Origin: Minisyncoccota bacterium
GTDB taxonomy: Bacteria; Verrucomicrobiota; Verrucomicrobiia; Methylacidiphilales; Verrucolacustridaceae
NCBI GenBank assembly: GCA_030054195.1
Contig: JASGCJ010000004.1
Location: 4,256-68,255, forward strand
Length of the DNA: 64,000 nt
Direction: 5' to 3'
A program made the translations under genes and the position numbers. The notes beneath the pieces were generated by a model. It worked only from the letters and a program-made list of their open reading frames with translations. It ran no database searches and was not told where the DNA came from. How positions within the stretch are numbered: the stretch's first letter is position 1; each line of letters opens with the position of its first letter. Below are positions 25,279 through 61,615 of this stretch, in pieces.

Positions 25279-26112
25279 TCACGGCACCTTGACATCCTTA
25301 GCGGTGGGAGCTTTGTACGAAGCGGCCTGATAAATCCATTGGAGTTCCGACATGCCCGCATCGTAGGAAGCCCATTTCACACTGCCATCGCCATAGAGGA
25401 CGTTCATCCCCTTGGGAATTCCGTTATGATAAAGTGTGAAGGAGGGGTTGGCAGAAGTGGAGGTCGTCCGAGTCCCGCCGGTACTGTGGGTACACCGCCA
25501 AGCGGAGCCATAGGTGTAAACCGTGTCCTGCATGAGAAGCGTGCGGGGTCCCAAGGCGGCTTGGCGCCCGGAGTTGATGCTTCCGCCCGGAGCAATGGAG
25601 GAGGGAAAACTGCCGGCATAATACTGGTAGGTGCTGCGAAACAGGGTCGTATTTCCTGGATCGTCAATGGAGACAGCCTTCGTGGCTGGGCAGCCCCAAA
25701 TCCGAAAGTCGGAGAAGTAAGGTTTGCACATGTCGACAAATGTATTTCCGTAGGAATCGGGATAGCTTCGCCCGGTTGGGTTGGGCAACTGACCATTGTT
25801 ATCCGACGCATAGGCAAGCAAGGCAACACCACATTGACGAAGATTGCTAGCGCACGCGGCACGGGAAGACTTTTCCCTCATCTGCCCAAGGACTGGTACG
25901 GAAAGAGCAATCAGCAAACCGAGGATTGCAACGACGACCAGGATTTCGACCAGACTGAACCCCCTTTGGCCCCCTGTCCGCTCTCCCCCCAGACGAGAAA
26001 AGAAAAAGCCGGGCGACAAACCCAAGCTAGATCGGTTTTTTATCGCGCCAGCCCCCATTACTCCAAAAGACCATATGAGACTGCCAACGCGGCGCATGAG
26101 CTTAGATCTCAT
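25279..26112 (-). CDS. Type II secretion pseudopilin-like protein with prepilin N-terminus
   Basis: The core is a prepilin cleavage site and hydrophobic helix, RGFSLVEILVVVAILGLL, followed by a Ser/Ala-rich segment (SRAACASNLRQCGVALLAYA) and a C-terminal MNVLYGDGSVKWASYD, the H-x9-DG-like ending common in Planctomycetes, Lentisphaerae and Verrucomicrobiota. I place the start at the ATG at 26112, which has an AAGG about 8 nt upstream; the frame runs to an ATG at 26199 and the leader stays long (about 45 residues) either way, so a downstream TTG is possible. Such proteins are thought to be minor pilins or surface proteins. Its position behind an operator shared with secreted enzymes suggests a part in export or surface attachment. 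Confidence 0.75.
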   Translation of the reverse strand: MRSKLMRRVGSLIWSFGVMGAGAIKNRSSLGLSPGFFFSRLGGERTGGQRGFSLVEILVVVAILGLLIALSVPVLGQMREKSSRAACASNLRQCGVALLAYASDNNGQLPNPTGRSYPDSYGNTFVDMCKPYFSDFRIWGCPATKAVSIDDPGNTTLFRSTYQYYAGSFPSSIAPGGSINSGRQAALGPRTLLMQDTVYTYGSAWRCTHSTGGTRTTSTSANPSFTLYHNGIPKGMNVLYGDGSVKWASYDAGMSELQWIYQAASYKAPTAKDVKVP

Positions 26113-26221
26113 TTGAAAACCTTGACCGATCTTTCCACGAAAGGCATGAAAAAGAATATGGCACCGGATGGTGAACATCGACCGAGCGAACTTGACCATA
26201 TAGGGGAAAGGTCACTATTTC

Positions 26222-26380: not shown

Positions 26381-29300
26381 ATGCCTAACGAGCAGAGAAG
26401 GATAATCCGGAAGCTGACCGCGAGGAGGAGTAAAACTTGTTTCCTCCGGGAAAAGGAGGGCGGGGCTTTCGTCCAACCCCGTCCCCTTCCTGCTATTCCC
26501 CTAGCAGGCCAACCCAAGTCGTCCCCTCACCGCCGACGGCAACCTTGGCGTTCACTTCGTCCCATACTCATTTTTCTTCTGGTGGCATCGCTAAGTCCAT
26601 CCGGGCGGGCTTCTTCCATAAACCCATTTTCATTTTCTGCAGAAATTAAACCTGCGCGGGAGGCCGATCGTGACAAATTTCGGATCACCACATCGGGTAA
26701 TATTCGGACTGAGACAATGGAAACCAAGATGGGGGGGATGCAACGGCGAGCCGATGTAGTCACCTTCTGCGGCGAGGGAGCCATGCTGGCTCTCGAAGTG
26801 CCGGCCACGTCAGGAAAGTCGATCTTGTTGGAAATCGAGGAAACTCACAACCGGCGACTGCAGGCTTTCGGTTACACCGTGTCGGTCAACGAACACCCCG
26901 TTTACTTTCGAACGTATCAAGAGTTGGGGACAGGACCGAATCACTTTTTCGTCGCCGTTCCCCCGAAGTTCACCAAAGGTTCTGGGGCGCTCCGCATCAG
27001 CCTGCGCAGCGATGGATCGGCTCCGTTCAGCATCGCACGGCTGTGGGTTTATGAGGATTTTTTCGAGACGACTTCGGCAACGGAAAAGGTTTACCGCCCG
27101 ATGGCTCTTTACGGGTTCAAACTCCCCCTCTCGCGTAAAGGCTTTGAAAGCTACTCCCCCGTTGGGCGTATTCAGGTGATCCAGTATGCCTCCCAACCGA
27201 CGGAAACAGGTCGGAAACGAATCCGAGAAACTATGCGCAAGGCAGCGGAGTCGGGCACACCCGCGATGCTCGTGGTCAATGGAACCCTCTGGGGCGGCAT
27301 GCCATCTGGGGCGGACGGTGACGGCGGATACTTTAGCGATCCCCAATACAGTTCGACCAGCTTCGACGCAGAGACCAACTGCTTCAATCCCTCCTGGCCC
27401 AGTATGTGGGGAAACACGGCATCTCCCCGGCTTCAGGAAACATGGCTGTACGGATTTGTGGAGAAGAGATTCGAGATGATCATGGAGGGATTCGACCGAG
27501 AAAGAGATATGCTCAAGGCACGATTAGGAGATTTTGATTTTTCTCTTGTTCGGGAATGGGGCACATCAAGCTGTGAGATCTCGCCGACGGCCGTTGATCT
27601 CGCCAAGCAAGAGGGGGTACTTTTAAATCCTTCGGACGGACTCGATGCCTCGGAAAGAAAGTGGGTTTTCGATAACGGGATTCGGCTCTGGAACCGCTAC
27701 GCTGGAAGCACACGCAACGCGGTGGGACGCGACAGCGTGCGGGTGGATAACGGCAAAGTGCAACTGCCGTCCACTCACCTCCGGGACCATCTTTACTCTC
27801 AGCCGAACTTTCTTAGCGACTGGCCGGTCGGCCCCGAGCTTTGGAGCATGGGCGAACAGGGCATGGTGCCGGGATTCTGGGCCAGCGGCGAACTTGGCCA
27901 AGGCAAGGAGTACCGCGAAGTCGCCATGTATGATTACCTCCGAGCCACAGGTAGACTCATCATGGTCAATATGGAACGCACGATCCTCAAGGAGGACTTC
28001 AGCGTCCTGCCCAAGCACTACGGCCGAGGGTTTCAATCCCTCGCCTTCTTCAACGATGTTGATGGCGACGAACGATTCATCCGTGCCGTCGATCAATGCG
28101 AAGTCCTTCCCGCCCTTCAGCCTCCTCACCGCGAACCAACTCTCCTCTCATTGGACTTCCGCTACCTACAGTCGTTAGGAAGTGCGCCGCAAATCGCCGC
28201 CTCCGATAATGTGACCATCCTCCACAAAGGCTCTGTTGCAATCCAAGAACATCGCGTTCCCCGCCTCGCCGTGGGCGACTACGGCAAGAGTGGAACGATT
28301 GTTTATCGCATCCAAGGCGGCCCAGAGGGCCTTCCCGCAGGTCTCAGCCTCCATTTGGACGGACGAATTTCAAAGGTGCCTGGGAATTTCATTGAGATCA
28401 CAGCGGGCAAAGATCGGGATCATCTGGTGCCGGTCGCCACACTCACCAGCAAGGAATTGCCCACGCCCGACCATTGGACCATGCATGTGACTTCCGAAGC
28501 TTCCTTGTCTCTCGGGTCAGAGATGAAAGGTCTTCCCGTCTGGTATCTCGGAATCACTCTGCACTCGCCAAGCGCTCCCGACGCTGCCTTTCTCACCAAG
28601 CTCGCGGTGGGCGGAAAGTGGAAAAACCGCAGCGGCTACCTCGATGACGGGGCTGGGCTGACGCTGAAACAGCAGCGCACCTTGGAGCTCTGGGTGCAGG
28701 ACCGTGCGGTAGCCAACAATCTTCTACACGAATACGCCCGCACCGTCCTGCAAGCCTGCTTCATGGAGCCTGCTAAGCGGGAAGATGAGATGATGGTGCA
28801 ACTCTTCGCCCTGCGGGACACCATTCCGCAATGGATCGCGGTTGCCGATCAGGGATTCAATCTCATCCAACGCGGCTTCTACCAACAAGCCGCGGCGCTA
28901 CTCGCCGCCGAACTCGCCCAAGTGCCGCCAGCCCGCTACGCCGTGAAAGGAGGAGGAACCCTCGGTTCCTATCCCGTCAAAGTCCGGCTTCCAAAAGCGG
29001 ACGACACAGCCGTTATCACCTTGCATCACGTACATCCGAACAGCGTGCTGTTCTCCGTGGACGCAGCTGATTCGCTGCCTGTCGAACTCACTTTCACTGG
29101 CCTCGACCCGAATATCCCGAATTGGGCGCTGGACTTCCACGGTGACCAGTTCGTCCTCCGGGCTCCCGCTCCCGGCGAGAAGACCCTGCCGTCACAGCCC
29201 GGCCCGAGGACGGTCACGGTCACCGCTCCCAAAAGAGCATCCCAAGTCTCCTCGTTGCCCGAGCGGTTGGAGGGGCGCTTCCTCCGCGGGGATCGCCAGA

Positions 29301-30310
29301 AAATTGCCATCGACACCCAAAACCGAGAAGCGGCACGGTTCGAGGCCCAAATGGAGCTGCCCGTCGCGCCAGGAGCCATTGTCGAAAGAAAAGCACACCG
29401 CCTGGCCGATCCGGAAACTGCAGAAAAGACGTGGCCCGAGCCGATGGATATGGTTTCGCTTCGCCTAAAGAATGGTCAAGTTACCCACATCTCGGCGCTC
29501 TACGGTAGGGATCGCGGCAAGATTCGGAAATTTCATCCGCCCTCGTTGACGTCTCCGGCGGATCCAGGCGGAATCGAACTCGAAAACGGCCACCGCTACG
29601 ACTTCCAATTCTCCAAGGCAACCGGCACCAGGTTTGAAATTGCTGGCTTGCAGGACCACATCACCAATTATGAGTTTCGGCATCTTGCGGATTTTCTGAA
29701 GCCCGGCGAGGAGGTGGAAGTCACCTATACCCCCTATGCCACCGACTGGTCTCGTCCGCGCCTGCGATTGGTCCGCCAGCCATCCAAGGTTCTTCTTGAG
29801 GTAGACTTTACCACCACTCCTGCAGAAGTCTGGAGACAAAAGCCTATAAAAATCTCTGGTGTGAACGTGATTCCCCACAAACCCGAGCCGAATTATCTCT
29901 ACGACGTGGTGATTCCTCTGCTCCGGCCCACTAACTTTTTTGAGCCGGGTTCTGTCACTTATCTGGTGGAGTCCGAGCAACCCCTAGGCACCACCGCCCT
30001 CGAATTTGCCGCAAGGGCTTTTGAAGACAGCAGTCGGGTCGAGTTTTTCACCAGTTCGGACGGCGATTCATGGCAAAAGGTCGGCCAATTCGACAACACT
30101 TGGCAAAATAGCTACCCCCAAAGTACCGACAGCAAAACATGGCGGTTTCCTCCCCGAGCCATCGACTTAACGGCCCATGTTCACGGAAAGAAACGCTTCT
30201 TTCTGAAGATCCAGCTATTTTGCGGCGATGCGGATGATCGATTCTGTTTTGGGCGATTCCGGGTCCTCACATCTGCCGATTTCCCGGTGGCCGAACGCCG
30301 GCACCCATGA
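26381..30310 (+). CDS. Giant secreted protein of unknown family, paralogue of the 38413-41670 product
   Basis: I do not recognise a named family. The frame is open from 26297; the first useful ATG is 26381, but the start is unsure because the hydrophobic export segment (RPILIFLLVASLSPSGRA) begins about 55 codons later. It aligns over most of its length with the protein at 38413: THNRR, PVYFRTYQELGTG.NH, a WGG.PSGADGDGGYFSD segment, VREWG, VNMER, and near the end ALYGRDRGKIRKF and IELENGHRYDF. The middle reads like an (alpha/beta) barrel glycosidase core, with the Glu residues of EWG and NMER as the best acid candidates. N- and C-terminal parts look beta-rich. The C-terminal 170 residues, ending in a galactose-binding-like module (SSRVEFFTSSDGDSW), have no counterpart in the paralogue. 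Probably an extracellular glycan-active enzyme; function is inference. Confidence 0.7.
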   Translation: MPNEQRRIIRKLTARRSKTCFLREKEGGAFVQPRPLPAIPLAGQPKSSPHRRRQPWRSLRPILIFLLVASLSPSGRASSINPFSFSAEIKPAREADRDKFRITTSGNIRTETMETKMGGMQRRADVVTFCGEGAMLALEVPATSGKSILLEIEETHNRRLQAFGYTVSVNEHPVYFRTYQELGTGPNHFFVAVPPKFTKGSGALRISLRSDGSAPFSIARLWVYEDFFETTSATEKVYRPMALYGFKLPLSRKGFESYSPVGRIQVIQYASQPTETGRKRIRETMRKAAESGTPAMLVVNGTLWGGMPSGADGDGGYFSDPQYSSTSFDAETNCFNPSWPSMWGNTASPRLQETWLYGFVEKRFEMIMEGFDRERDMLKARLGDFDFSLVREWGTSSCEISPTAVDLAKQEGVLLNPSDGLDASERKWVFDNGIRLWNRYAGSTRNAVGRDSVRVDNGKVQLPSTHLRDHLYSQPNFLSDWPVGPELWSMGEQGMVPGFWASGELGQGKEYREVAMYDYLRATGRLIMVNMERTILKEDFSVLPKHYGRGFQSLAFFNDVDGDERFIRAVDQCEVLPALQPPHREPTLLSLDFRYLQSLGSAPQIAASDNVTILHKGSVAIQEHRVPRLAVGDYGKSGTIVYRIQGGPEGLPAGLSLHLDGRISKVPGNFIEITAGKDRDHLVPVATLTSKELPTPDHWTMHVTSEASLSLGSEMKGLPVWYLGITLHSPSAPDAAFLTKLAVGGKWKNRSGYLDDGAGLTLKQQRTLELWVQDRAVANNLLHEYARTVLQACFMEPAKREDEMMVQLFALRDTIPQWIAVADQGFNLIQRGFYQQAAALLAAELAQVPPARYAVKGGGTLGSYPVKVRLPKADDTAVITLHHVHPNSVLFSVDAADSLPVELTFTGLDPNIPNWALDFHGDQFVLRAPAPGEKTLPSQPGPRTVTVTAPKRASQVSSLPERLEGRFLRGDRQKIAIDTQNREAARFEAQMELPVAPGAIVERKAHRLADPETAEKTWPEPMDMVSLRLKNGQVTHISALYGRDRGKIRKFHPPSLTSPADPGGIELENGHRYDFQFSKATGTRFEIAGLQDHITNYEFRHLADFLKPGEEVEVTYTPYATDWSRPRLRLVRQPSKVLLEVDFTTTPAEVWRQKPIKISGVNVIPHKPEPNYLYDVVIPLLRPTNFFEPGSVTYLVESEQPLGTTALEFAARAFEDSSRVEFFTSSDGDSWQKVGQFDNTWQNSYPQSTDSKTWRFPPRAIDLTAHVHGKKRFFLKIQLFCGDADDRFCFGRFRVLTSADFPVAERRHP

Positions 30311-30342
30311 CGACAGGACTCTCCGCTTCTGTCATAAACAGT

Positions 30343-30370
30343 TTGTCCAAGCGCTTGGCATCGCTACGAT
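30343..30370 (+). promoter_or_regulatory. Weak promoter with LacI-type operator
   Basis: TTGTCC (30343-30348), 16 nt, TACGAT (30365-30370), with the perfect 12-bp palindrome CCAAGCGCTTGG (30347-30358) at the -35/spacer boundary. It lies directly ahead of the SGNH gene at 30376. The tiny distance to the ATG means an almost leaderless message if the -10 is right. Confidence 0.5.
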
Positions 30371-30375
30371 AATGG

Positions 30376-31356
30376 ATGCTTATGAAAAAACTCCCTCTCC
30401 TCGTCGCGTTTTTTCTCGTTGCCCCCCTCATTTCCCAAGTCTTTGGGGGGGATTTCGAATATCCTTATCCGCCGTACAACGAGGGCCGGATGGATCCTCA
30501 AATCAACGGTTGGCCCCTGACCCCTGAGGAGGTGAAATATTTGTCCAAAGGAGCTCATGAGCGGAGGCCCGGAACGGAAAGCGGCAAACAACAAATTACC
30601 TACCTGCCCTACACGCCAGTCGCGGACGGGTCCGGAAATCCAAACTGGTATGTCAAAGCACACGAAAAGCTCCTGGCCTCGCTCGATAAGTTCAAGGCCG
30701 AGCATGGCCCGGACATCGACGTTCTACTCGTGGGCGACAGCATCACCTGGCAGTGGCTTGATATCCGTGCTCCCTACGACCAGTACCCCCAACTCTTCAA
30801 CGAGGCGTGGCGCGAAAGCTTTCCTAAGATCAAGGCTTTCACCATCGGAGTGGCCGGAGACAAGAGCCAAGGCCTCCTGTGGAGACTCGATCACCAAGGA
30901 GCCACAGGGACGCAGCCCCCCCCGCTGAACCCTAAAGTGGTCGTCCTCGCCATCGGCCACAATAACATGTATTTCAGTCGGGAAACCGGCGTGGACAACG
31001 CTGCCAAGGGAATTCTCTGGTCCGCAAAAAACTTGCGCAGTAAGTTTCCGGGTTGTCTGGTCGTCGTTAGTAAGATATTCCCCAACAAAACGCCGGCCGA
31101 TGCTTTCTACAAAGACGCCCAGGCGATCAATGCCGAATTAGATAAACTGATCCCTGCGGAGAACGACACCAAGATAATCCTTCAACCGGACCTCTGGTCG
31201 AAAATGACCAACGCAGACGGCACCGTCAGGCCGGAGTTCTTTCGCGCCGACGAACCAGCGCACAACAAGATCCACCTATCCGTGGAGGGCTACCGTCTCT
31301 GGGCGGAAGCCCTCAAGCCGCTCATCGATCCTACAATCGAAAAAAAGAGAGATTAA
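30376..31356 (+). CDS. Secreted SGNH hydrolase of the MDPQ-GWPLT family
   Basis: 326 aa; starts at 30376 or two codons later. Signal peptide MLMKKLPLLVAFFLVAPLIS, then FEYPYPPYNEGRMDPQINGW, the N-terminal motif repeated in four other proteins here. SGNH blocks: LLVGDSITWQW (S122), TIGVAGDKSQGLLWRLDH, IGHNNMY. The last block is HNKIHLSVEGYRLW: the His is present, but Asp of the usual DxxH is Asn. Known relatives act as acyl or acetyl esterases on glycans. It is preceded by its own operator site and converges on the GH52-like gene with a 4-nt overlap. Confidence 0.83.
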   Translation: MLMKKLPLLVAFFLVAPLISQVFGGDFEYPYPPYNEGRMDPQINGWPLTPEEVKYLSKGAHERRPGTESGKQQITYLPYTPVADGSGNPNWYVKAHEKLLASLDKFKAEHGPDIDVLLVGDSITWQWLDIRAPYDQYPQLFNEAWRESFPKIKAFTIGVAGDKSQGLLWRLDHQGATGTQPPPLNPKVVVLAIGHNNMYFSRETGVDNAAKGILWSAKNLRSKFPGCLVVVSKIFPNKTPADAFYKDAQAINAELDKLIPAENDTKIILQPDLWSKMTNADGTVRPEFFRADEPAHNKIHLSVEGYRLWAEALKPLIDPTIEKKRD

Positions 31357-33521
31357 GAGAAGCCGGTTTCGCTCCAGTCCAACTTGGGCTCGACTTGCGG
31401 CGGACGGAACACACGGGGAGCTTGGCCCCGTAGCCAATCGGCCTCGAATAGGCACGGAACTTCCACCCCAGGCAATCCACCAGAAAAAACACGCGTGCCT
31501 GCAACGCGGTCAATCACCAGACCGACTGCCGCATCAAAGAACCCCCACACCGCAATGCCCCGAGGATAAAAGTGCAGATTGTTTCCGCCGAAGGTCTCAA
31601 AAAAAAGAGCTGGAGCCTGTGCGTTGGTGGTCAACTGCCAATCCCAATACCTTTCGCTGAGGTCTAGGAGATCAATGCCGCGGTAAAAGGCACAGATATC
31701 CCTCGACATGTTCATGGAAATCCAACCCGGGCGGGAAGAGACGCCGACCATTCCCTCTTGCAGCCCTCCGGCGGCGTAGTCGTCCGCCTCGAAATCGCTA
31801 TGGGAACAGCCATACTCGCGCAGACAGGCCTTGGCTGCGTTGCGGATGTCATCCCGCAATCGGCTGCCGTTCAGCGGGCTGGGAAAACCCACCATGTCCA
31901 ACGGCGGAAGACCATTACAGGTGTAGATGTGATACCCGTCCCACCCAGGAACAACCCCCATCCCTAAATCTTTGCCCGTCCAAGGGTTCTTTAATCCGCG
32001 ACCATCGTTGTTCATCAGACAGGCGTAGTGATCTCCCCGCCAACCGAACTCCTCGATCCGAGCCCGAATCAATTCGGCTCGGGCCCGCAGAACCATCGGC
32101 CGGCCTGCGTCTCCGTGATTCTCCAGAATGGCTGCCGCGCACTGCAGGGCGAGTAAGGTTTTTACGGCAAGATATACCTGCTCCCGCCCATATTGAAGTG
32201 CCGGCGATCCGTCATCGATGGTATTCGCCACCCCCACGTCGGGGACCCCAGTTCCGTCCGTGTCACAGCGCTCCAAGAACAAGGCATAGCGGTCAACCGC
32301 TCCGATGTGCCTACGCCAAATCGAAGGGTCACCCGTGCGTCGCCAATGCGCATAAAGCAGGATCAGGTAATTGGCCGTTTCTTCGACCTCCATTTCGTGG
32401 GGATAAGTCTGGCCATTGGCGCGAGCCATCTCGCCACAATCGTGGGAAAGGAATTCGGTCCCCTCGCCCCGTTCCCCAAGCGTTGCCGTGCCGGATTTAG
32501 AAAATTCCGGCCAGTAGTTCAGTTCGATCCCGAGCAATTCGGGCCACAGAGCGAGGTAAAACGGCGACTGGGTGAACTCCACATCCAACGTGGAATGGAA
32601 ACCACAGCTTCCCTCCCAGACACTAAACCAGTCCGATCCACCGCGATCTACCCACCAAGTGTTCATCAACCATGCGTGGAGCGTCTGGGCCATCAGGCGG
32701 TTCACTGACGGCGGCAAGTTGTTGGATTGCACGATGGAGTCAACCTTGCGGGCATTTTCAAAGATTTCCTCTCCGCTCGATCGGCACCAAGCAGCGACGT
32801 CCGACAAACCTTTGAACTCGTGGACATAAACGAAAGGGCACCGCTTTCCCCGGACTTCCAAGACCGGATCGCTCCAAGTACACCAGAAGATATCGAGGGT
32901 TTTGTCGCCCGTTTCGGAGAGTTCCATTTCCTTACAAAAGCCCGTCTCCTTTGCCGGCGTCTGCGGTGAAAGCAGACGATCCCGCTGGGGGACACGATTG
33001 GCGCTGGCTTCGGGATGGGAGGCCCGGACTAAACAGCTCTCAAAACAAAGATCTAAGCAGTCCTCCGCCGCAACTTCAAGGTGCCCGCCCAAAGGGACGA
33101 CTTCAAAAAAGCACTCGACCCTACTCACATCTTCTAGCACAGGAGTCCAACGGAAATTGCCCCGCAACTTCTCCACCTCCATTCGGATCGCAAGGACCGG
33201 ACGAGTTGAAAACTCACGGTCCCGCGGACGAAAGGGAGTCGCCACCGTAAGGCTCACCTTCAAAGCATGGCTCTCTTCAATTCCGATGAAACGGGAGGTG
33301 CATGGGGTGATTCGTTGATCAAGAAAGGCGAATCGCTGTCCGCCCTGACAAAATGGAAAATAGTACTCCTGCCCGTTGAATCGGATACCGGCCCGGATTT
33401 CGAGGGGACATCCCTCGTTAAACATGTCAAAGCGTATAATGCGCGCGCCCCCCCGCACCGGATCAAGAAGCAGCCCATGCCTAGAACCTAGGACAGAAAT
33501 AGCCTCACAAATGGGATTCAT
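31353..33521 (-). CDS. GH52-like (alpha/alpha)6-barrel glycoside hydrolase, cytoplasmic
   Basis: 722 aa without a signal peptide. By eye it follows bacterial GH52 beta-xylosidases in length and layout. An N-terminal beta-sandwich is followed by a helical barrel with WFSVWEGSCGFHSTLDVEF (compare NEGEYRMMNTFD), FLSHDCGEMA, ANTIDDGSPALQYGREQVYL (compare TYDSLDVSLGQARNNLYL) and a C-terminal LHFYPRGIAVWGFFD. E303 and D436/D437 fall where GH52 has its nucleophile and acid. Similarity is remote, and DUF4965-type or GH116-like barrels share parts of the pattern. It lies between an SGNH esterase and the GH38-like gene, with an operator about 80 nt upstream of its start. Confidence 0.6.
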   Translation of the reverse strand: MNPICEAISVLGSRHGLLLDPVRGGARIIRFDMFNEGCPLEIRAGIRFNGQEYYFPFCQGGQRFAFLDQRITPCTSRFIGIEESHALKVSLTVATPFRPRDREFSTRPVLAIRMEVEKLRGNFRWTPVLEDVSRVECFFEVVPLGGHLEVAAEDCLDLCFESCLVRASHPEASANRVPQRDRLLSPQTPAKETGFCKEMELSETGDKTLDIFWCTWSDPVLEVRGKRCPFVYVHEFKGLSDVAAWCRSSGEEIFENARKVDSIVQSNNLPPSVNRLMAQTLHAWLMNTWWVDRGGSDWFSVWEGSCGFHSTLDVEFTQSPFYLALWPELLGIELNYWPEFSKSGTATLGERGEGTEFLSHDCGEMARANGQTYPHEMEVEETANYLILLYAHWRRTGDPSIWRRHIGAVDRYALFLERCDTDGTGVPDVGVANTIDDGSPALQYGREQVYLAVKTLLALQCAAAILENHGDAGRPMVLRARAELIRARIEEFGWRGDHYACLMNNDGRGLKNPWTGKDLGMGVVPGWDGYHIYTCNGLPPLDMVGFPSPLNGSRLRDDIRNAAKACLREYGCSHSDFEADDYAAGGLQEGMVGVSSRPGWISMNMSRDICAFYRGIDLLDLSERYWDWQLTTNAQAPALFFETFGGNNLHFYPRGIAVWGFFDAAVGLVIDRVAGTRVFSGGLPGVEVPCLFEADWLRGQAPRVFRPPQVEPKLDWSETGFS

Positions 33522-33599
33522 AAGTCAACAAAAGGGGCGTCGTTTATTACAGTTACAGGCACAAACTCATCCGAATTCAACCATGAAGCCAATAAAAAG

Positions 33600-33611
33600 C
33601 CAAGCGCTTGT
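33600..33611. promoter_or_regulatory. LacI-type operator between the GH52-like and GH38-like genes
   Basis: CCAAGCGCTTGT, a 10-bp perfect palindrome in the 220 nt divergent gap. A TTGACA lies at 33620-33625 towards the GH38-like gene, but the nearest good -10 (TACAAT, 33648-33653) is 22 nt further on, so the promoter is less clear than at the other sites. It may act on either gene or both. Confidence 0.5.
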
Positions 33612-33741
33612 GTTCCTCGTTGACAAAAAACTATCCAAACGGAAAACTACAATACGGTGAGTTTCGCCAAGCGATGAGTTTATATACTGCCATGCCCGCA
33701 TTGACCCGGCGGATCCGGATCTTGCCACCCCTTTCCTGCTG

Positions 33742-36657
33742 ATGTCGGCTGACCTCAAAGCCCGGAAAATTCGTGCGGCCCGGGAAAGCAATCCGGTGAA
33801 GTACGATATGCACTTGATCCTCAACACTCACTGGGATCGGGAGTACCGCTGGTCGTTTCGCGAAACCCAAGCCCGCCTCCTGGAAGCGGGTGACCTACTC
33901 GTGACGACCATGGAAAAAGACGAGCGATTTCGTTACTTTCACACTGATTCTCAAGCCTCGTTTCTCGAAGATTATCTGGAATTTCGTCCCGAGAACCGTT
34001 CACGCGTCGAAAAGTTAGTGGCGGCGGGCCGAATCCTAACCGGGCCTTGGTACACCCTGCCGGCGGAGTTTCTGGTCAGCGCTGAATCCTTGGTCCGCAA
34101 CCTGCTTCTTGGGCACCGCATCGCCGCTGGACTGGGTGGCGTCATGAAATGCGCCTACAACATTTTTTCTTGGGGGCAGGTTTCCCAATTGCCCCAGATC
34201 TACCGTCAATTTGGAATGGATACGATCCTCTTCTACCGGGGCATTAATCAATCCAAGTTAAAGCACCTAGAATTCTGGTGGGAATCCCCGGACGGATCCC
34301 GAGCCATGGGACTGACTTTCAGTTCGTACCATCGCTTGAACTTTTGGATCTATGTATACAATCCATTTATTCGGGGATCCAAAAGCGGAAGTTTGCCCAC
34401 TGGGGAGTACTCGCTCGACGAAATTAAGAAGAAAGGCGGTTTGTTCGCCAAACTGGCCGATACCTACAGCACCAACGATTTAAACTATCACCTGCTTCAC
34501 CAACCCGTCGCCTTGGATATGACAGCAGCACTTGAGGGAATGACGACCTTGCTGAATTCCGTCAAGGACAAGGCCTCCACCCGACATCTACTTTTTCTGC
34601 AAGGTTTTGACCAAGAGAATCCAGACCCGGTGGTTCCGGACCTGATCGACAAAATCAACTCGTCAATTGACTATGGAAAACTCAAGGTCAGCAGCCTGCC
34701 CGAATACGTCGATCTGGTGCGAAAGGAGATGTCTAAAAGTGGCGCCGACTCTGCCTTGCCCACTTTTCAAGGTGAAATGTTGGACGTGGAGACTCATGCG
34801 GATGCCCTTGGCCCTTTATATAACGGCGTTTTTTCCGCCCGTATGCCACTCAAAATGAGGAATACGGACTGTCAAAACCGGTTGGAACGTTGGGCCGAAC
34901 CCACTTCCGCATGGCTCTTCCTGCAAGGCTTGGAATATCCTGGGAAATTGCTCGATTCTGCCTGGCGCGAGATATTACAGAATCAGCAACACGACGGCAT
35001 TGGGGGTTGCCATGTGGATCGAATACAACTCGCCATGGAAGAGCGTTACCGCATCGCCAACGACATCAGCGAGTGCGTCACCCGAGATAACCTGAAAGCA
35101 CTTGTCTCGCAGATTGACTACTCTTTTGTCGGCGCTCAAGAACTCGCCCTCACGATCTTCAATACCTCCCTCCACCCGCGCCATGAAGTGCTCGAGGTGG
35201 AAGTGGACATCCCGAAGTCCTGGGGACTCCGCGACCACGGCCCTTACAAGAAACCCTTGTTGATCGAGGCTGACGATCCGAAAGGCGCACCGGCGCGTTG
35301 TCAGATCTTGGGAACCGAAGACGACACCTTCTATGCCTATCTAAAATACGGCAACGCCATTAGCATTGAAGCAACGCGCATCCGCCTTGCCATCGAAGTC
35401 CGTGTCCCAGCATGCGGCTACGGAGTCTATCGCCTGCGCCCTCGGCAAGCGGCTTCCCGACCGGTGGACGACCTCAGCCGCGAGACCCACACGCTCGAAA
35501 ATGAGTTCCTCCGAGCTTCGATCGCCACTGACGGCTCAGTTTCAGTCCTCGACAAAGCCACCGGGTTTTCTGCGGAGAATTTGAACCACTTCGAGGACGA
35601 GGGGGAGTGCGGGGGTCCGCTCGCCCATATCCGGCCGGATCGGGATGCCCGCTACACGACCCACGGGGAACCCGCTCGCATCGCCCTGATCACCAATGGG
35701 CCACTCGTGGCCAAATATCGTGTGGAACGGGATTGGATGCTGCCGGAAAGCCTCGACGCGGAGAGGAAGATCCATGTTCCGCACGGTGCGCAATGGGTCG
35801 ACTACGGTTCGCTCGGGCGCTCCGAACGCAATCGTCACATCCGGATCGTGACCGAGGTCACGCTACAGAAATTGGGGCGCTGCTTAGAGTTCAAGACCCG
35901 TGTTTCGAATAACTGCCTCGACCATCGTCTTCGCGTGCTTTTCCCCGTCGGATTGGAGAAAGCAGAAACCTGTCATGTGGACAGCCCCTTTGATGTGGTC
36001 ACCCGCAAGATTGCGGTGCCTGATTCCACCGGATGGTACGAAGAAGCGGCTCGTACGTTGCCGACCACTTCCTTTGTCGACGTTAGCGACGGCACGCATG
36101 GCTTGGCCGTTTTCCATGATGGTCTTTCCGAATACGAAGTCATCGATCAACCAAAGCGCACGATCGCCCTGACGCTGCTCCGCTGCTTCGGAACGGCCGG
36201 CAATCCCACCGAAACCCACGTCTACCAACCGCTCGCCCAATGCCTCGGAGAACACCAGTTTCGCTACGCCGTTTTTCCACATAGTGGCCTCTGGAGCAGT
36301 TGCCATCTCCTACGCGAGGCCCATGCCTTCACCACCCCACTTCGGGCCGTGGTCTCCTCGGGCAACCCCTCTGGCAAACTTCCAACCTCGCTCGCCTTCT
36401 TTGAATGGAACACGGACGATCTAGTTTTCTCCGCTCTCAAACTGGCGGAGGATGGCCGGGCGCTTGTCCTGCGGGGTTTCAATCCTACCAAGAGCACGCT
36501 GGCCATGAGGCTTCGGGTTCCAGGGATCATCCACCGGGCAGCCCTCGTGACTTTGGAGGAAAAGGAAATCTCTGCTTTACCAATAGACGCCAACCACGTT
36601 GCCTGGACCGTCCGACCCGGCGAGATTACCAGCATCCGCCTAGAACTGCGTGACTGA
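33742..36657 (+). CDS. GH38-like alpha-mannosidase family protein with altered active site
   Basis: 971 aa, no signal peptide. The N-terminal domain is plainly GH38: LILNTHWDREYRWSFRE (H30 and D32, zinc ligands), DSQASFLEDYLEFRPENR, GPWYTLPAEFLVSAESLVRN, and later QNQQHDGIGGCHVDRI with the late His. GH38 enzymes are zinc-dependent retaining alpha-mannosidases. The segment that normally reads like LPDSFGHISQMPQI here reads YNIFSWGQVSQLPQI: the nucleophile and zinc-ligand Asp is replaced by F142 and the FGH His by Q146. The middle three-helix and C-terminal beta domains look complete, so this is not simple decay. Activity and substrate are therefore uncertain. The HAD gene follows with an 8-nt overlap. 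Confidence 0.8.
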   Translation: MSADLKARKIRAARESNPVKYDMHLILNTHWDREYRWSFRETQARLLEAGDLLVTTMEKDERFRYFHTDSQASFLEDYLEFRPENRSRVEKLVAAGRILTGPWYTLPAEFLVSAESLVRNLLLGHRIAAGLGGVMKCAYNIFSWGQVSQLPQIYRQFGMDTILFYRGINQSKLKHLEFWWESPDGSRAMGLTFSSYHRLNFWIYVYNPFIRGSKSGSLPTGEYSLDEIKKKGGLFAKLADTYSTNDLNYHLLHQPVALDMTAALEGMTTLLNSVKDKASTRHLLFLQGFDQENPDPVVPDLIDKINSSIDYGKLKVSSLPEYVDLVRKEMSKSGADSALPTFQGEMLDVETHADALGPLYNGVFSARMPLKMRNTDCQNRLERWAEPTSAWLFLQGLEYPGKLLDSAWREILQNQQHDGIGGCHVDRIQLAMEERYRIANDISECVTRDNLKALVSQIDYSFVGAQELALTIFNTSLHPRHEVLEVEVDIPKSWGLRDHGPYKKPLLIEADDPKGAPARCQILGTEDDTFYAYLKYGNAISIEATRIRLAIEVRVPACGYGVYRLRPRQAASRPVDDLSRETHTLENEFLRASIATDGSVSVLDKATGFSAENLNHFEDEGECGGPLAHIRPDRDARYTTHGEPARIALITNGPLVAKYRVERDWMLPESLDAERKIHVPHGAQWVDYGSLGRSERNRHIRIVTEVTLQKLGRCLEFKTRVSNNCLDHRLRVLFPVGLEKAETCHVDSPFDVVTRKIAVPDSTGWYEEAARTLPTTSFVDVSDGTHGLAVFHDGLSEYEVIDQPKRTIALTLLRCFGTAGNPTETHVYQPLAQCLGEHQFRYAVFPHSGLWSSCHLLREAHAFTTPLRAVVSSGNPSGKLPTSLAFFEWNTDDLVFSALKLAEDGRALVLRGFNPTKSTLAMRLRVPGIIHRAALVTLEEKEISALPIDANHVAWTVRPGEITSIRLELRD

Positions 36658-37678
36658 TCCGGCTTCTCAGTTTCCTGGACTGGGCCCCAACGCAGAGGCA
36701 CTAGGCTTACAGCCTCGGTTGCGAACGTCAGACAACCGCTTTCTCGCTGGCAACAGTTCCGTCCAGTCCATCGCCTCCACCCAGGACGGCAAAGTTGAAT
36801 TTGTTGGATTCCCTGACCACACCCTAGCCCTGGTCAACTCCGCCTTGGGATACCCAGCCTATTACCCGGTGCACCCCTCACCTCACCCAGAAAAGGTTCA
36901 GGCTGTCCTAATGGATTTGGACGGAACCACGGTCCACAGCGAGGAGTTCTGGATGTGGATCATCGAGCGAACCTTGGCCACGCTCTTAGGCACTCCTTCT
37001 TTTCGCCTGGAAGAGGCCGACCTTCCACACGTATCAGGCCACAGCGTCTCCGAGCATCTCCTTTATTGCATCCATAAATATGGGCCGGGCAAATCCTTGG
37101 ACACGGCACGAAATATTTATTTCACCCTGGTGAGCGGCGAGATGAAGGCGATCCTGGAAGGCACAGGGAAAAAGGGGGCTTTTCGCCCCGCTCCGGGGTT
37201 GAAGAATTTTCTCCTTCGCTGCAAAAGCCAAAAGATTCGCATCGGCCTAGTAACTTCGGGCCTTCACGAAAAAGCCTGGCCAGAAATTCTTGATGCCTTC
37301 CGCACTCTCGGGCTCGGGAACCCAGCGGATTTTTACGATGCGATTATTACCGCGGGAACCGCCATCCGCCCCGGCTCACCGGGAACCCTGGGGGAGCTTT
37401 CCCCCAAGCCCCACCCATGGCTCTACGCGGAAGCCGCACGGATTGGTCTAGGCATTACTTTTTCCCAACGGGGAAGTGTAGTCGGCATTGAAGATAGCGG
37501 TGCCGGGATTTGTTCCATCCGTCTGGCCGGACTCCGCCCCCTCGGCATGAAGACAGGAAACCTTGCCGCAAGCGGGACCCAAAGCCTTTGCGAAAGGGTG
37601 TTCGAAGATCTTCAAGAGGCCGAGGAGTACCTTTTCGGCACAGCCGGGGAATCAGGCAAGCAGTCTGGGGCTATTTAG
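36650..37678 (+). CDS. HAD-superfamily phosphatase/phosphomutase-like protein
   Basis: 342 aa from a GTG at 36650 that overlaps the GH38-like stop. The HAD core begins near residue 85: QAVLMDLDGTTVHSEEFW with the nucleophile Asp and the +2 Asp in DLDGT; IGLVTSGLHEK (motif II Ser/Thr region); SPKPHPWLYAEAARIGL with the motif III Lys; and VVGIEDSGAGICSIRLAGLR (motif IV). This layout resembles beta-phosphoglucomutase-like or sugar-phosphate phosphatases in the cytoplasm. The first 80 residues (VQSIASTQDGKVEFVGFP) are an extra segment I cannot assign. Translational coupling to the mannosidase-like gene suggests it handles a phosphorylated sugar from the same pathway. It runs 8 nt into the convergent next gene. 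Confidence 0.8.
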   Translation: MTDPASQFPGLGPNAEALGLQPRLRTSDNRFLAGNSSVQSIASTQDGKVEFVGFPDHTLALVNSALGYPAYYPVHPSPHPEKVQAVLMDLDGTTVHSEEFWMWIIERTLATLLGTPSFRLEEADLPHVSGHSVSEHLLYCIHKYGPGKSLDTARNIYFTLVSGEMKAILEGTGKKGAFRPAPGLKNFLLRCKSQKIRIGLVTSGLHEKAWPEILDAFRTLGLGNPADFYDAIITAGTAIRPGSPGTLGELSPKPHPWLYAEAARIGLGITFSQRGSVVGIEDSGAGICSIRLAGLRPLGMKTGNLAASGTQSLCERVFEDLQEAEEYLFGTAGESGKQSGAI

Positions 37679-38354
37679 GAAAGGTGAGTTCAAGAGCCAG
37701 TTGATCTCCCTCCACCATTTTTCGGCGAATCCGAATATCCGGTGGCTGGAATTCTTTTACAGCTTGCACGACATCCACACCGCTCATATCTCCAGAAAGG
37801 ATGAAAAGAGGCGCCTCCCGCGTACCCCGCCTAAATTCAAGCTTTGTGAAGAGCCCCACAAAGATGCCCGTCGGCACACCATTCTTGAAAATCACTTTGT
37901 CATCCGCCTGGACCGTAAGATCACCAACAATTTCTGAGGGAATCTGTAAAGTCAGGAATCCTGAACCAGTCGGAATCAATTTTCCTTTCCAGGCAAGAAC
38001 CATGGCCACCGCCCCTTTCCTCGTCTCACACGAAACCTTGGCGCTTAACTCCGCCCCTGAGGGCAAGAGAATGGATTCCGATGCCAAGGTAGCCAACCCG
38101 CTTTGACTTGGCTGTGCGAGTAGCATGTAAAAAAAGCGCTCTTCCACAAAAAAGGATGGCCGAAATATCAATGTTGGCAGGGCATCCTGCCTAACCTCAA
38201 TCTCGCCTTTGACGCCGATTTTAGCCGTTGGCTCAGAAGCCAATGCTGAAGAGCAGAAGCCAAGAGCAAGGGCTCCTACGGCCCCACATCTCATGAGCCA
38301 ACCAACGAACGCCAGAAAAGCCCCTAGTCGGCTTTTGACAAACGAATGACTCAT
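37671..38354 (-). CDS. Small secreted beta-rich protein of unknown function
   Basis: 227 aa. The start at 38354 is nearly on top of the predicted transcription start; an ATG at 38291 (MRCGAVGALALGFCSSALA) gives a cleaner signal peptide and is possible. The mature part is mostly beta-strand-like with few cysteines, e.g. LTVQADDKVIFKNGVPTGI and APLFILSGDMSGVDVV, and no family motif was recognised. It lies behind an operator-containing promoter, divergent from the second giant paralogue, which suggests joint induction and an extracytoplasmic helper role such as glycan binding or chaperoning; that is inference only. Confidence 0.65.
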   Translation of the reverse strand: MSHSFVKSRLGAFLAFVGWLMRCGAVGALALGFCSSALASEPTAKIGVKGEIEVRQDALPTLIFRPSFFVEERFFYMLLAQPSQSGLATLASESILLPSGAELSAKVSCETRKGAVAMVLAWKGKLIPTGSGFLTLQIPSEIVGDLTVQADDKVIFKNGVPTGIFVGLFTKLEFRRGTREAPLFILSGDMSGVDVVQAVKEFQPPDIRIRRKMVEGDQLALELTFPK

Positions 38355-38364
38355 AGTCTATCTA

Positions 38365-38392
38365 TATCTACAAGCGCTTGTTATTAGGTCAA
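38365..38392 (-). promoter_or_regulatory. Promoter with LacI-type operator in its spacer
   Basis: Minus strand TTGACC (38392-38387), 16 nt, TAGATA (38370-38365); the spacer carries the perfect 12-bp ACAAGCGCTTGT (38370-38381). It drives the small secreted protein and lies about 35-80 nt ahead of the divergent giant paralogue, which it may also control. Confidence 0.65.
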
Positions 38393-38412
38393 CACTCCCG
38401 TGACCTCGGGGC

Positions 38413-41400
38413 ATGCGTGGCAACCTTCTCCTCAAGCTTACTTTTTTTATGAAACTGCTGATCCCCCTGAGAAAAGTTACCGTCGCTTGCCTGGCTTTCC
38501 TCTGCCTGGTCAAGATGGCAGGACTGGCAAGTGCAGCCTCAATGATCTCCGTTGAAATGGGCAAGGATTCAGCCTCGTGGGCAAGGGCTCTGAGCAAATC
38601 CGGGGATGTGCGCACCGAAGCATTTTCCTTGGAAATGGGTTCCCTGCGAACAGATATCGAGGCGTGCACCATTCGAGGCCGTGACAGTGAACTTTCCCTC
38701 ACGCTCCAACCTCCACCAGGGGTCGGTTCGCTACTACTCGAGGTCGAGGAAGTTCACAATCGTCGTCCGGCAACGTTTGCCTATTCCATATTGGTGGAAG
38801 GGCAACCAGTCTTCTTTCGGACTTATGACGAGTTAGGTGCCGGAAGAAACCACTACTTCGTGGATCTTCCCGATGCCGTGGCAACACGGAATAGCCTCAC
38901 GATCACTTTCCGGAATGCGAGCGCCGCCCCCTTCAGCCTTTCCCGAATCTGGATTTTCCGAAATTTCACTCAACTGGCAGAAAAGGATAAAACCTATCGC
39001 CCCATGGCGGTGGCCGAAAATCCGACCTGGCTTCTTACGGAGTTCGTAACGAAGGGGCCCGACGGGAAGCCCGTCCGAAAAACGCAGGATCCGCAAACTG
39101 AGGCACGGGCGTGGACCACATTAAAGGAGCGCATGAAAGATACCCCTTATTCCCCCAGCGTTCTGCAGATCATTTCTTACGGCAACACCCCAGCGAAAGA
39201 AATCAACAAATCGATCCGGAAGGCCTTGGAAACTACGGCCACCAACGCCGTGGATCTGAACCTCTCCTTGAACGCCAGTGAGTGGGGCTATCATCCGAAC
39301 GGGCCGGATGGCCTCGGCGGTTTTTTCTCGGACATCAACTACAGCAAAGTTTTATTTCGGCCCGAGAGCGGGGATTTCCGCCCCACGTGGCTGAACACCC
39401 CAGGAAATACCACGTGGCCAACTTGGAACCATCCTCAGCTTAACCGTTTCTGGAACCATCGCATCGCTCAAGCCGTCCGGAGTTACGCCAACCAGCGCGA
39501 TTTCCTGCGGGCCCAAGGAGCCAAGTTTCCCCGTCCCACGGTGAATCAAGAGTGGGGGTTCAGCGTTAGCGATCGTAATGATGCCACTCTGTCTGCGGCC
39601 GCTAGGGATCATATCACCATTGACCCCAAGACCGCAAAACTCGATGAGACCCAGAAGAAGTGGGTCTTTCAAAACGCGGCGGCCGCCGCCGCACGATTCG
39701 GAAAGTCTTTTGATGACGCCGCAGGGAAAGACCGCGTCGTGGTTGACCGGGGAGTCGTCTCTTTGCCGGACGGGCAGTCGGTCGATGACAACTTCTTTCA
39801 GACGTTCGCGGATGCGATTGAACCCTACTACGACGACCAGTGGGCGGGATGGCAATTTGGTGTCAGCCCTTATTCTTCGACCACCGGCGAGTTTCTTCCG
39901 CACCATCCAGAAGCCATCTACGAATATATTTGCGCGCTGGGTAAGTTGGTTGGCCCCAATATCGAGCGACTCTGCCTTCCCACCCTCGACTACTATCAGA
40001 TCCTTTATGAGCGGGGATTCCTGCAGATTACCCCATTGAATCCGCGTCCCGGTGAAATCGATAACTTCCTTCCCCAGAGTGTAGGTTTGCGGGAGCGATC
40101 GGCTCGGTCCCCCGTCGATCACAACCGAAAACTCCTAGAGCTAGCTTTTCGAAACAAATCCGGAAATCTCGGCCCAGAAGATATCATCGCCCAAAAAGCC
40201 AATGTGCAAATTTCGTCGCAGGGCCTCGGTATGGTCATGTCCAAGCCACCGGAGTCGGGCGAAATCCTCTATAAAATTCATAATCCCGAACCCGTTTCCA
40301 AAGATAAACTCATGATTGAACTCGATGCCCGGATTCCCAAAGACAAAGGCGGAAAGATCACGATTCTTCTTGGAGATTCTCCATCTACAATGAACCCTGC
40401 GGCAACTTTCGCCGCAAAAGATCTTGGACCGGTCCTCAATTTCACGGGAACCCAGATCGTCAAAGCGGACTTAGGGGATACATTCGGCGGAAAAGATTCC
40501 TTCCTAATCGGCATCCGGTTGGAAGGCCAATACGCCAGCTACGCCTCCATCCGGTCACTGAGGCTCGGCGTTCCGTGGAAACAGACAACCGGACCATGGG
40601 ATGGAAAGATGCCCACTGTTCAGGAAGTACGCACCCGGAATTTATGGGTCCAGAATCGGGCAGTATTCGAGCGGGCGGCAGAGCGCTTTCAACAAACAGC
40701 CGGTGAAAATAAAAGCTATCAGGAGGCGATAACACTCGCCGGCCAGGGAGCGTATCGCGATGCCTACCGCGTTTTAGCTGGAGCCGAGGCCCTATCGTTG
40801 CCGGCTGCATTCGTAGTGCGAGGTCACGGGACGTTGGCCGATTATCCAGTAACCGTGAAGTTGACTAATGCTGACGATGTTGTTCTCGTCGATCTGATCC
40901 GCGCTGGACCGGACGAATATTCGTTGGGATTCCAGAGCGAAAAGCCCGTGAGAGGAACAATCGAAATCCGCGACTTACCACAAGGGCCCTCCTTCGAGTT
41001 ACTCAAACCAGCCCCCAATCAGCTCATCATTCGAAAAGCGGAGAACGGAATTCTCAATCCCGTGGGTGGGATTCTTACGACCGATATTTCCGTGCTGAGT
41101 CCGGATGCTATGAAACGCTCCTTGCCAAAAGTTTTAACGGGAATGGCTCTTTCCTCATCTAAAGAAGGGATTTTGATTGAGACGCAGGAGGAAGGGCTCT
41201 GGCTGGACAATCCCCACTTTATTCCGTGGTCTACCGGCGTGCAGTTCTCCCGAAAAGAACACGGAAAAAGCGAGCCGGTCACCTTGGATTGGCCGAAAGA
41301 ACGGGATCGGGTGGAACTAGTGCTCGACGAATCGGGGGCAGCTACCAAGGCAAGCGCCACCTTCGGTCGCGATCAGGGAAAAATTCGTTCCTTTCTACCC

Positions 41401-41670
41401 CCGCAGGCTACGGGCGAAATTCACAACGGTATCGTCGAACTGGAAAACGGTAACCGCTACGAACTCGCCAACATGTGGCGAATGACGGATGTAGGCGGGG
41501 TTGCGCCCTTGAAACCGTTCGTCCGGCAGAATTCCAACGAAACCCTTTCCGCCGGATTTTACCCTGGACGAACTTTGTCGATTGATTTCACTCCCTACAA
41601 CCCGTTCGGGCGCCTCCCGAGGATGATCAAGGTAACTTCCCCAGATCCGTCCAGATCCGTAAAGCCGTGA
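38413..41670 (+). CDS. Giant secreted protein of unknown family, paralogue of the 26381-30310 product
   Basis: 1085 aa from 38413; an ATG at 38449 (MKLLIPLRKVTVACLAFLCL) is an alternative start that leaves the same signal peptide, ending near GLASAA. It shares the full core with the gene at 26381: VHNRR (about 115), PVFFRTYDELGAGRNHYF, EWGYHPNGPDGLGGFFSD, PGNTTWP, NQEWG (E380), GPNIER (N516, E518), AVFERAAERF, HGTLADYPVTVKL, TFGRDQGKIRSF and VELENGNRYEL. No CAZy or Pfam family came to mind. The EWG and NxER glutamates are the best conserved acids, so a retaining glycosidase is a reasonable guess. It stops at the conserved beta-rich tail and lacks the extra C-terminal module of its paralogue. 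The symporter gene follows 43 nt later. Confidence 0.72.
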   Translation: MRGNLLLKLTFFMKLLIPLRKVTVACLAFLCLVKMAGLASAASMISVEMGKDSASWARALSKSGDVRTEAFSLEMGSLRTDIEACTIRGRDSELSLTLQPPPGVGSLLLEVEEVHNRRPATFAYSILVEGQPVFFRTYDELGAGRNHYFVDLPDAVATRNSLTITFRNASAAPFSLSRIWIFRNFTQLAEKDKTYRPMAVAENPTWLLTEFVTKGPDGKPVRKTQDPQTEARAWTTLKERMKDTPYSPSVLQIISYGNTPAKEINKSIRKALETTATNAVDLNLSLNASEWGYHPNGPDGLGGFFSDINYSKVLFRPESGDFRPTWLNTPGNTTWPTWNHPQLNRFWNHRIAQAVRSYANQRDFLRAQGAKFPRPTVNQEWGFSVSDRNDATLSAAARDHITIDPKTAKLDETQKKWVFQNAAAAAARFGKSFDDAAGKDRVVVDRGVVSLPDGQSVDDNFFQTFADAIEPYYDDQWAGWQFGVSPYSSTTGEFLPHHPEAIYEYICALGKLVGPNIERLCLPTLDYYQILYERGFLQITPLNPRPGEIDNFLPQSVGLRERSARSPVDHNRKLLELAFRNKSGNLGPEDIIAQKANVQISSQGLGMVMSKPPESGEILYKIHNPEPVSKDKLMIELDARIPKDKGGKITILLGDSPSTMNPAATFAAKDLGPVLNFTGTQIVKADLGDTFGGKDSFLIGIRLEGQYASYASIRSLRLGVPWKQTTGPWDGKMPTVQEVRTRNLWVQNRAVFERAAERFQQTAGENKSYQEAITLAGQGAYRDAYRVLAGAEALSLPAAFVVRGHGTLADYPVTVKLTNADDVVLVDLIRAGPDEYSLGFQSEKPVRGTIEIRDLPQGPSFELLKPAPNQLIIRKAENGILNPVGGILTTDISVLSPDAMKRSLPKVLTGMALSSSKEGILIETQEEGLWLDNPHFIPWSTGVQFSRKEHGKSEPVTLDWPKERDRVELVLDESGAATKASATFGRDQGKIRSFLPPQATGEIHNGIVELENGNRYELANMWRMTDVGGVAPLKPFVRQNSNETLSAGFYPGRTLSIDFTPYNPFGRLPRMIKVTSPDPSRSVKP

Positions 41671-41713: not shown

Positions 41714-43180
41714 TTGAAAAATCCCTTTTCGCATCCCGCCGGGGTTTCGCATCTGAGTAGACGCGATAAAATCCTATACGGCGTCGGGTATGTGCCCGAC
41801 TCGATCATGAACAACACCTTCCTTACGTTGATCATGGTTGGCTATAACGTTGAATTTGGATTGGCGGCTTCTTTGGTGAGTCTCGCTATCAGTCTTCCAC
41901 GCATGTACGATGCGTTCCTCGACCCACTGATCGGCTCCCTCTCAGACCGCTGGAAAGGCCCGTGGGGAAAGCGGCGTCCATTCCTGCTGGTAGGATCAAT
42001 TCTTGGCGCCTTAGGGTGCATTGCCTTTTGGTGCCCACCATTCCGTGTCCATCAAGAGTTCATGGGTTTGCCGGGGCCATGGCCGCTCTTTGGTTGGCTG
42101 ATAGGGGTCGCCTTTTTCTATTACACCGCTTATGCGATTTACTCGGTTCCCTACCTGGCCTTGGGTTTGGGCATGACCACGGACGATCGGGCGCGGTCGG
42201 AGCTCATGGGCTACCGAGTGGCGGCAAACAACTTAGTTCTCTGTACGGTTGTTCCCTTGGCTTCTTGGCTGATCTACAAGAATTGGCTTGGAACGACTCC
42301 CGCGGAGTCCCTGCTGGCCATCGGAGGTATTCTGGCACTACTCATTATCGGTACTGGCGGAGTCACCGCGTTATTCACCCGAGAGAGCGCAACCTCGGCT
42401 GAGATTATCACCAAACCTGCGCACAAGCCGTCCGTTCGGGCTGACCTTCGGGCTGTTTTAAAAAATAAGCCGTTCCTGATGGTGGTGGGAATTGTCTCTT
42501 TCAACCTGCTCAGCCTCGGAGCCATCATGAGCCTCGCATTTTTTCTCATGTTCAGCGTCGTCTACCCAGGTGGCTCCGTGGAAAATAAAAGTAGTATCAT
42601 GACCCTCAGCTCGATCGGTGGATTTGCGGGAAATATCTTCGGATTTATGCTGGCCCCTTACGTCGCCGTTCTTTCTGCCCGCGTCGGCCGAAAGCGCCTT
42701 CTCCTGTTTGCGCTTGGCAATATGATTGTGGCTTACCTCCTTTCTCCGCTGATCTTTTCTCCGACCTGCCCCTGGCTTTTTCTTGTGTTCAAGTTGCAGA
42801 TCACTTTTAGCCTGACCTGTGTCTGGATTCTCACCCTCTCGATGCTTGCTGACGTCAGCGACATGGACGAACTCGAGAACGGATCGCGCCGCGACGGGCT
42901 CTTTTCGTCGATGTTCAACTGGGGCACCAAAGTCGCCTTTTCCCTTAGTGCTGTTGCATCCGGACTAGCCATCGACTGGTCAGGGTTCGACGCAAAGCTT
43001 GGTCTTCAGTCGCCGGAGACCATCACATTCCTCCGCTGGGTTTTCGCCCTGGGACCCATTCCGTTTTTTGTCGCCTCCATCTATTTCACCATGATCTTCC
43101 CCTATAGCCCGGAGAAAACGGCCATGCTTCGGAAAAAGCTGCCTGGCAGGATCGCCGAACCTGAAGACGTTCCTACGTGA
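41714..43180 (+). CDS. GPH-family (MelB-like) sugar:cation symporter
   Basis: 488 aa starting with TTG at 41714. It has twelve hydrophobic segments and GPH hallmarks: KILYGVGYVPDSIMNNTF, ISLPRMYDAFLDPLIGSLSD, RWKGPWGKRRPFLLVG, a YYTAYAIYSVPYLALGLGMT segment, and MLADVSDMDELENGSRRDGL late in the protein. Relatives import melibiose, xylosides, glucuronides or sulfoquinovose with Na+ or H+. It lies between the giant paralogue and the GH9-like gene (10 nt gap), which suggests uptake of the oligosaccharide that the cytoplasmic GH9-like, GH52-like and GH38-like enzymes then process. Confidence 0.85.
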   Translation: MKNPFSHPAGVSHLSRRDKILYGVGYVPDSIMNNTFLTLIMVGYNVEFGLAASLVSLAISLPRMYDAFLDPLIGSLSDRWKGPWGKRRPFLLVGSILGALGCIAFWCPPFRVHQEFMGLPGPWPLFGWLIGVAFFYYTAYAIYSVPYLALGLGMTTDDRARSELMGYRVAANNLVLCTVVPLASWLIYKNWLGTTPAESLLAIGGILALLIIGTGGVTALFTRESATSAEIITKPAHKPSVRADLRAVLKNKPFLMVVGIVSFNLLSLGAIMSLAFFLMFSVVYPGGSVENKSSIMTLSSIGGFAGNIFGFMLAPYVAVLSARVGRKRLLLFALGNMIVAYLLSPLIFSPTCPWLFLVFKLQITFSLTCVWILTLSMLADVSDMDELENGSRRDGLFSSMFNWGTKVAFSLSAVASGLAIDWSGFDAKLGLQSPETITFLRWVFALGPIPFFVASIYFTMIFPYSPEKTAMLRKKLPGRIAEPEDVPT

Positions 43181-54480: not shown

Positions 54481-54562
54481 TTCTTTCACAAGGTTACATG
54501 AGCGCAGAAGTTCATGTAAAGGGTAGCGAAGAAGCAACAAGCCTTTCTAGCGCCCCGGGCAG

Positions 54563-61610: not shown

Positions 61611-61615
61611 GAAAC

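Follow-up and report, generated by a model that had tools for sequence, protein, structure and literature searches.

Two giant paralogous proteins beside a shared operator as candidate members of a new family of exported glycoside hydrolases

The stretch of DNA analysed here (64,000 nucleotides from a lake bacterium, hereafter the window) encodes two very large proteins, which raises the question of what they are and what they might do among the carbohydrate-related genes around them. P0001 (1309 aa; 26381-30310, + strand) and P0002 (1085 aa; 38413-41670, + strand) are both encoded by intact open reading frames. A preliminary description of the sequence had proposed that they are paralogues on the basis of motifs shared from a THNRR/VHNRR box to a GRD/GKIR tail. 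BLASTP confirms this, with 30% identity over 1074 columns (E 3e-107). The named motifs are aligned, including the THNRR/VHNRR box (residues 155-159 of P0001 and 114-118 of P0002), the Glu of EWG (E392 and E380), the Glu of NxER (E532 and E518) and the GRD/GKIR tail. P0001 and P0002 are the only copies of the family in the source genome, which comprises 1.87 Mb in 100 contigs and is 87% complete. Judging from their N-termini, both proteins are probably exported, as had been claimed; P0002 begins with a typical signal-peptide-like segment, but in P0001 the hydrophobic segment starts late, not before about 57 residues from the N-terminus. Misbinning of the contig is not supported, since the tetranucleotide profile of the first 42 kb of the window correlates at 0.83-0.96 with those of the other contigs of the genome. 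The correlation is lower (0.78-0.85) for the right end (54-64 kb), consistent with recent acquisition of positions 54000-64000.

We searched for known families to which the two proteins might belong. Neither has a match in Pfam or NCBIfam, a Pfam search across 18 family members gave no match, and searches with P0001 alone and with family profiles returned no convincing sequence relative in the PDB. The earlier statement that no known family fits is thus borne out in the Pfam, NCBIfam and PDB sequence searches, with nothing above threshold, and no account of the family came to light in the open-access literature searched. A partial, short match to GH20 (22 bits, domain E 0.022) was rejected because its register does not align the catalytic Asp-Glu pair.

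Relatives of the giant proteins number about 25 and come from Verrucomicrobiota and one planctomycete metagenome-assembled genome (MAG). They were found in 3 of 388 genomes by a one-query search across the phylum, and by an alignment search in 7 of 384 genomes of the class and 3 of 288 of a second class. These class-scan matches include two shorter proteins of the type of L006 and a weak one in genome G113, where a C-terminal domain matches the F5/8 domain on a GH29. None of 20 congeners has a relative. A scan of genome contigs with a single sequence found no relatives, and the alignment-based scan found 14 loci, from several lake-labelled MAGs, two 'Methylacidiphilum sp. Phi', one Terrimicrobiaceae, one Spartobacteria and the planctomycete MAG. 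By these sequence comparisons the family is real and rare, and apparently undescribed. Multiple copies are frequent, with about six in genome G363 and at least four in G751. On one contig of the planctomycete MAG (L027, 2-7212), three giant-family genes lie in tandem on 7.2 kb, the first and last interrupted by the contig ends. A tree of 20 sequences separates the P0001 type from the P0002 type with support of 97/96. Both types are present in each of the window, L024, G363 and the planctomycete, which implies that the duplication is old and that the pair has been retained. L006 (694 aa) and L038, which are both shorter, have a sandwich and a barrel in common with the giants, and hhalign relates L006 to the family with a probability of 99.7 (E 2.9e-25). 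A match to Pgp3 at the N-terminus of L006 was weak and was set aside as a beta-sandwich look-alike.

Both giant genes adjoin the same palindrome, CAAGCGCTTG, as first described. The window contains five exact copies of it where 0.09 would be expected, 0 of 100 shuffles reached five, and all five sites are intergenic. These putative operators are located upstream of P0001 (26228-26237), upstream of a GDSL esterase gene (site 30348-30357, gene 30376-31356, + strand), between the divergent genes of a GtaA/GH52-like and a GH38 protein (33601-33610), upstream of P0002 (38371-38380), and upstream of a gene for a LacI-family regulator (site 54587-54596, gene 53461-54540, - strand). This regulator is the probable owner of the operator, and a second LacI protein (15236-16321) has no tie to the palindrome. 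The 11-bp form, ACAAGCGCTTG, has no match elsewhere in the 1.87-Mb genome, and G363 (locus L017) carries a 54% identical LacI relative, a 66% identical GH38 and the same operator sequence all together; the regulon is thus local and conserved. The operator positions support the proposed co-regulation of the giants with the GDSL esterase and with an MFS_2 sugar symporter, the gene of which (41714-43180, + strand) lies directly 3' of P0002. Two further genes face the giants across their operators. One encodes an N_methyl/DUF1559 pilin-like protein (25279-26199, - strand), possibly of the same regulon because it is divergent from P0001 across the operator. The other (37671-38354, - strand), divergent from P0002, is a 227-aa ORF without a Pfam match.

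The remaining neighbours also point to carbohydrates. The GtaA six-hairpin/GH52-like protein (722 aa; 31353-33521, - strand) is conserved as a companion of the giants (56% identity in L017 and 67% in L033) and may represent an uncharacterised hairpin glycosidase subfamily. The GH38 alpha-mannosidase-like protein is encoded at 33742-36657 (+ strand). Downstream of P0002 lie genes for a CelD_N/GH9-like protein (43191-45674, + strand) and a FAD-dependent oxidoreductase (45674-47992, + strand), and in the wider locus one for a GH29 alpha-L-fucosidase (56997-58754, + strand). The window also encodes AXE1, SASA, several GDSL esterases, GH2, GH29, FucI and GH38. A GDSL esterase encoded at 20975-24379 (1134 aa; + strand) is fused both to Listeria-Bacteroides (Flg_new) and to PATR autotransporter-type repeats and is, by this domain composition, an unusual surface esterase. 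Nearly all relatives of the giants likewise adjoin sulfatases, esterases or glycoside hydrolases, the exception being L032, with no recognised CAZyme nearby. S1 sulfatases occur near the relatives in L016, L017, L024, L028, L033, L034 and L040; none of the window ORFs that were compared by BLAST is similar to them. Other neighbours of the relatives include GH38, GtaA/GH52-like hairpin proteins, GH35, GH43, GH67, GH127, GH39, AXE1/SASA esterases and MFS_2 symporters. In the planctomycete MAG (L035, 2-5720), genes for a GH9-like protein, a FAD oxidoreductase and a GH29, respectively 50%, 57% and 66% identical to those of the window, adjoin a giant-family gene. This module is common to two phyla, which suggests horizontal transfer.

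The AlphaFold2 model of P0002, computed with 17 relatives, has a pLDDT of 85.9 and a pTM of 0.86. It comprises a beta-sandwich (residues 43-183), a (beta/alpha)8 barrel (residues ~196-560, encoded at 38989-40092, + strand), another beta-sandwich, a helical segment (736-794) and more beta domains. The barrel strands are residues 198-201, 246-255, 281-287, 376-381, 460-464, 489-492, 512-518 and 536-542, assigned by their order in the element list, with 198-201 taken as strand 1, and not by coordinates. P0001 is predicted to have the same architecture, with an N-terminal beta-sandwich, a TIM-barrel-like core (residues ~236-575) and beta domains, but ends in an F5/8-like sandwich (~1136-1305) that P0002 lacks. 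The region matching the P0002 barrel (residues 236-592, with E392, E504 and E532; 27086-28156, + strand) gave a weaker separate model (pLDDT 67.5, pTM 0.71), in which the barrel order is recovered and E392 and E532 again terminate what were read as strands 4 and 7. Identity is highest in the N-terminal sandwich, where it averages 54% per column, and the core is conserved across phyla.

A Foldseek search with the whole chain of P0002 returned many TIM-barrel glycoside hydrolases (GH66, GH26, GH29-like, GH2, GH5 and GH10), with GH66 first, at low whole-chain TM-scores of 0.1-0.2 and mixed with unrelated beta-rich proteins. The isolated core, itself a weak model, gave no significant fold match, and a search against viral models was uninformative. 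Structure prediction and fold search, which the preliminary description had recommended, therefore support the TIM-barrel fold class at the level of a model but not closeness to any single family. GH66 dextranases and cycloisomaltooligosaccharide glucanotransferases resemble the giants as the top match and in having a TIM barrel flanked by beta-sandwich domains. Membership of GH66 was rejected: PF13199 is unmatched in 18 members and in G363 with its roughly six copies, hhalign against the GH66 protein L073 gives a probability of 0.4%, and the TM-score is about 0.15. The GH29-like fucosidase FucWf4 (PDB 9pnk) matches the barrel and would suit the fucose-related context of the window, but its TM-score is 0.10 and no sequence relation is seen. 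Membership of GH29 was likewise rejected, as PF01120 (Alpha_L_fucos) is unmatched and hhalign against the window's own GH29 gives a probability of 0.9%. For the domain at the C-terminus of the P0001 type, the matches to F5/8 type C (CBM32) domains are weak and fall below the Pfam threshold (best E 0.0011).

In the P0002 model, E380 (EWG) ends strand 4, E493 (SGE) directly follows strand 6, E518 (NxER) ends strand 7, and D299 and D307 lie in the strand-3 loop. Conservation was counted over 25 core rows, in which one gene is entered twice (L033 = L062). D299 and D307 have no exception where covered, and E493 is present in 23 of 23 giants and absent from L006 and L038. Position 380 is Glu or Asp in 23 of 25 rows (Ser in L026, Cys in L031), and position 518 is Glu in 21 of 25 (Trp or Phe in L030, two L027 copies and L032). 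The four members without E518 retain Glu or Asp at 380, and no member lacks both. In L006 the EWG motif is replaced by ENEP and NxER by NREE, the pattern expected of an acid/base and nucleophile pair. The conserved Glu residues had been named as the first acids to examine; in the model they do terminate strands 4 and 7, but neither is invariant, and D299 and D307, together with E493 among the giants, are more conserved. In the window proteins, the modelled positions leave the Glu of EWG and NxER as good candidate catalytic residues.

Taking these data together, the indirect evidence that the family degrades glycans is strong, and we think it probable, with some reserve, that P0001 and P0002 are exported multidomain retaining glycoside hydrolases, forming a new family by Pfam, NCBIfam and PDB. 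Of what was first proposed, an undescribed glycan-active family is the best-supported part, through the missing Pfam, NCBIfam and PDB relatives, the predicted TIM barrel and the CAZyme neighbours, but enzyme activity is a prediction. Enzymes of clan GH-A (GH2, GH5, GH10, GH26, GH39 and others) are retaining, with a catalytic Glu ending each of strands 4 and 7. The predicted barrel with Glu ending these strands and the NEP-like motif of L006 resemble that clan. The giants differ from it in having no sequence relation detectable with Pfam, NCBIfam, PDB profiles or hhalign against single GH2 proteins, in lacking, for the most part, the Asn before the strand-4 Glu, in the loss of the strand-7 Glu from four members, and in their several extra beta domains. 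We read them as a new family, perhaps with a clan GH-A-like 4/7 layout, although the pair is not universal, since two members have Ser or Cys in place of E380 and four have Trp or Phe in place of E518.

As retaining hydrolases, the giants would use E380/E392 as acid/base and E518/E532 as nucleophile, and E493 and D299/D307 would bind the -1 sugar or join catalysis. The catalytic barrel would follow the N-terminal beta-sandwich and precede the other sandwich domains, and the CBM32/F5-8-like end domain of the P0001 type could bind substrate. From the regulon and gene context we infer that the substrate is a complex polysaccharide that probably contains fucose and mannose and is esterified, by acetylation and, in relatives, also by sulfation. 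It would be cleaved inside or near its ends, outside the cytoplasm; the GH38, GH29, GH52-like and esterase proteins would trim the products, which the MFS_2 symporter would import and the LacI regulator would sense. A comparable case is GH195, a new family recently found to act with sulfatases and an alpha-mannosidase family as a sulfated alpha-1,3-mannanase system in diatom-associated bacteria, and described as distantly related to GH99 (PMC13063451).

The giants might instead be enzymes of the same kind that pair E380 on strand 4 with E493 on strand 6, E518 merely supporting. Alpha-glycosidases of GH66, GH29 and clan GH-D type carry their catalytic pair on these two strands. This arrangement, which we regard as unlikely, would fit the invariance of E493 among the 23 giant cores, the four losses of E518 in members that keep Glu or Asp at 380, the interchange of Glu and Asp at that position, and the Foldseek order, with GH66 cycloisomaltooligosaccharide glucanotransferases at the top and GH29-like, GH97 and GH66 dextranase proteins lower. 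However, L006 and L038 lack E493 yet have equivalents of E380 and E518, the TM-scores are 0.14-0.16 with alignments extending over unrelated domains, and neither the GH66 model in G363 nor hhalign against a GH66 protein gave a match. Also doubtful, to a like degree, is the bolder proposal of a new family, perhaps a new clan, in which D299/D307 and E493 are the machinery in place of the 4/7 pair and the substrate is some uncharacterised heteropolysaccharide of freshwater algae or cyanobacteria. If that were true, paralogues without E380 or E518 would still be active, but with a changed specificity.

A barrel enzyme of other chemistry, either a polysaccharide lyase or an inverting hydrolase acting through D307/D299 and E493, seems improbable to us; D299, D307 and E493 are exceptionless among the giants and E380 and E518 are each lost somewhere, but the acid placement and the ENEP and NREE of L006 resemble retaining glycoside hydrolases. 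That the giants are non-catalytic glycan-binding or surface scaffold proteins aiding the enzymes encoded nearby is very improbable, for although they are very large, multi-sandwich proteins, one with an F5/8-like C-terminus, whose N-terminal sandwich is the part of highest identity and some of whose paralogues have lost candidate acids, five acids that the two window copies share cluster, by position, on the strand C-terminal side of the predicted barrel, and the core is kept across phyla.

If P0001 and P0002 are active glycoside hydrolases, as we favour, they would represent a sequence family that the general annotation libraries searched (Pfam and NCBIfam) fail to detect, and the genomes that carry it would consequently be under-called as polysaccharide degraders. 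The repeated sulfatase neighbours and the roughly six copies to which the family has expanded in one lake MAG suggest that its substrate is important in lakes. Once the family is named, the genes co-regulated with it could be used to work out that substrate.
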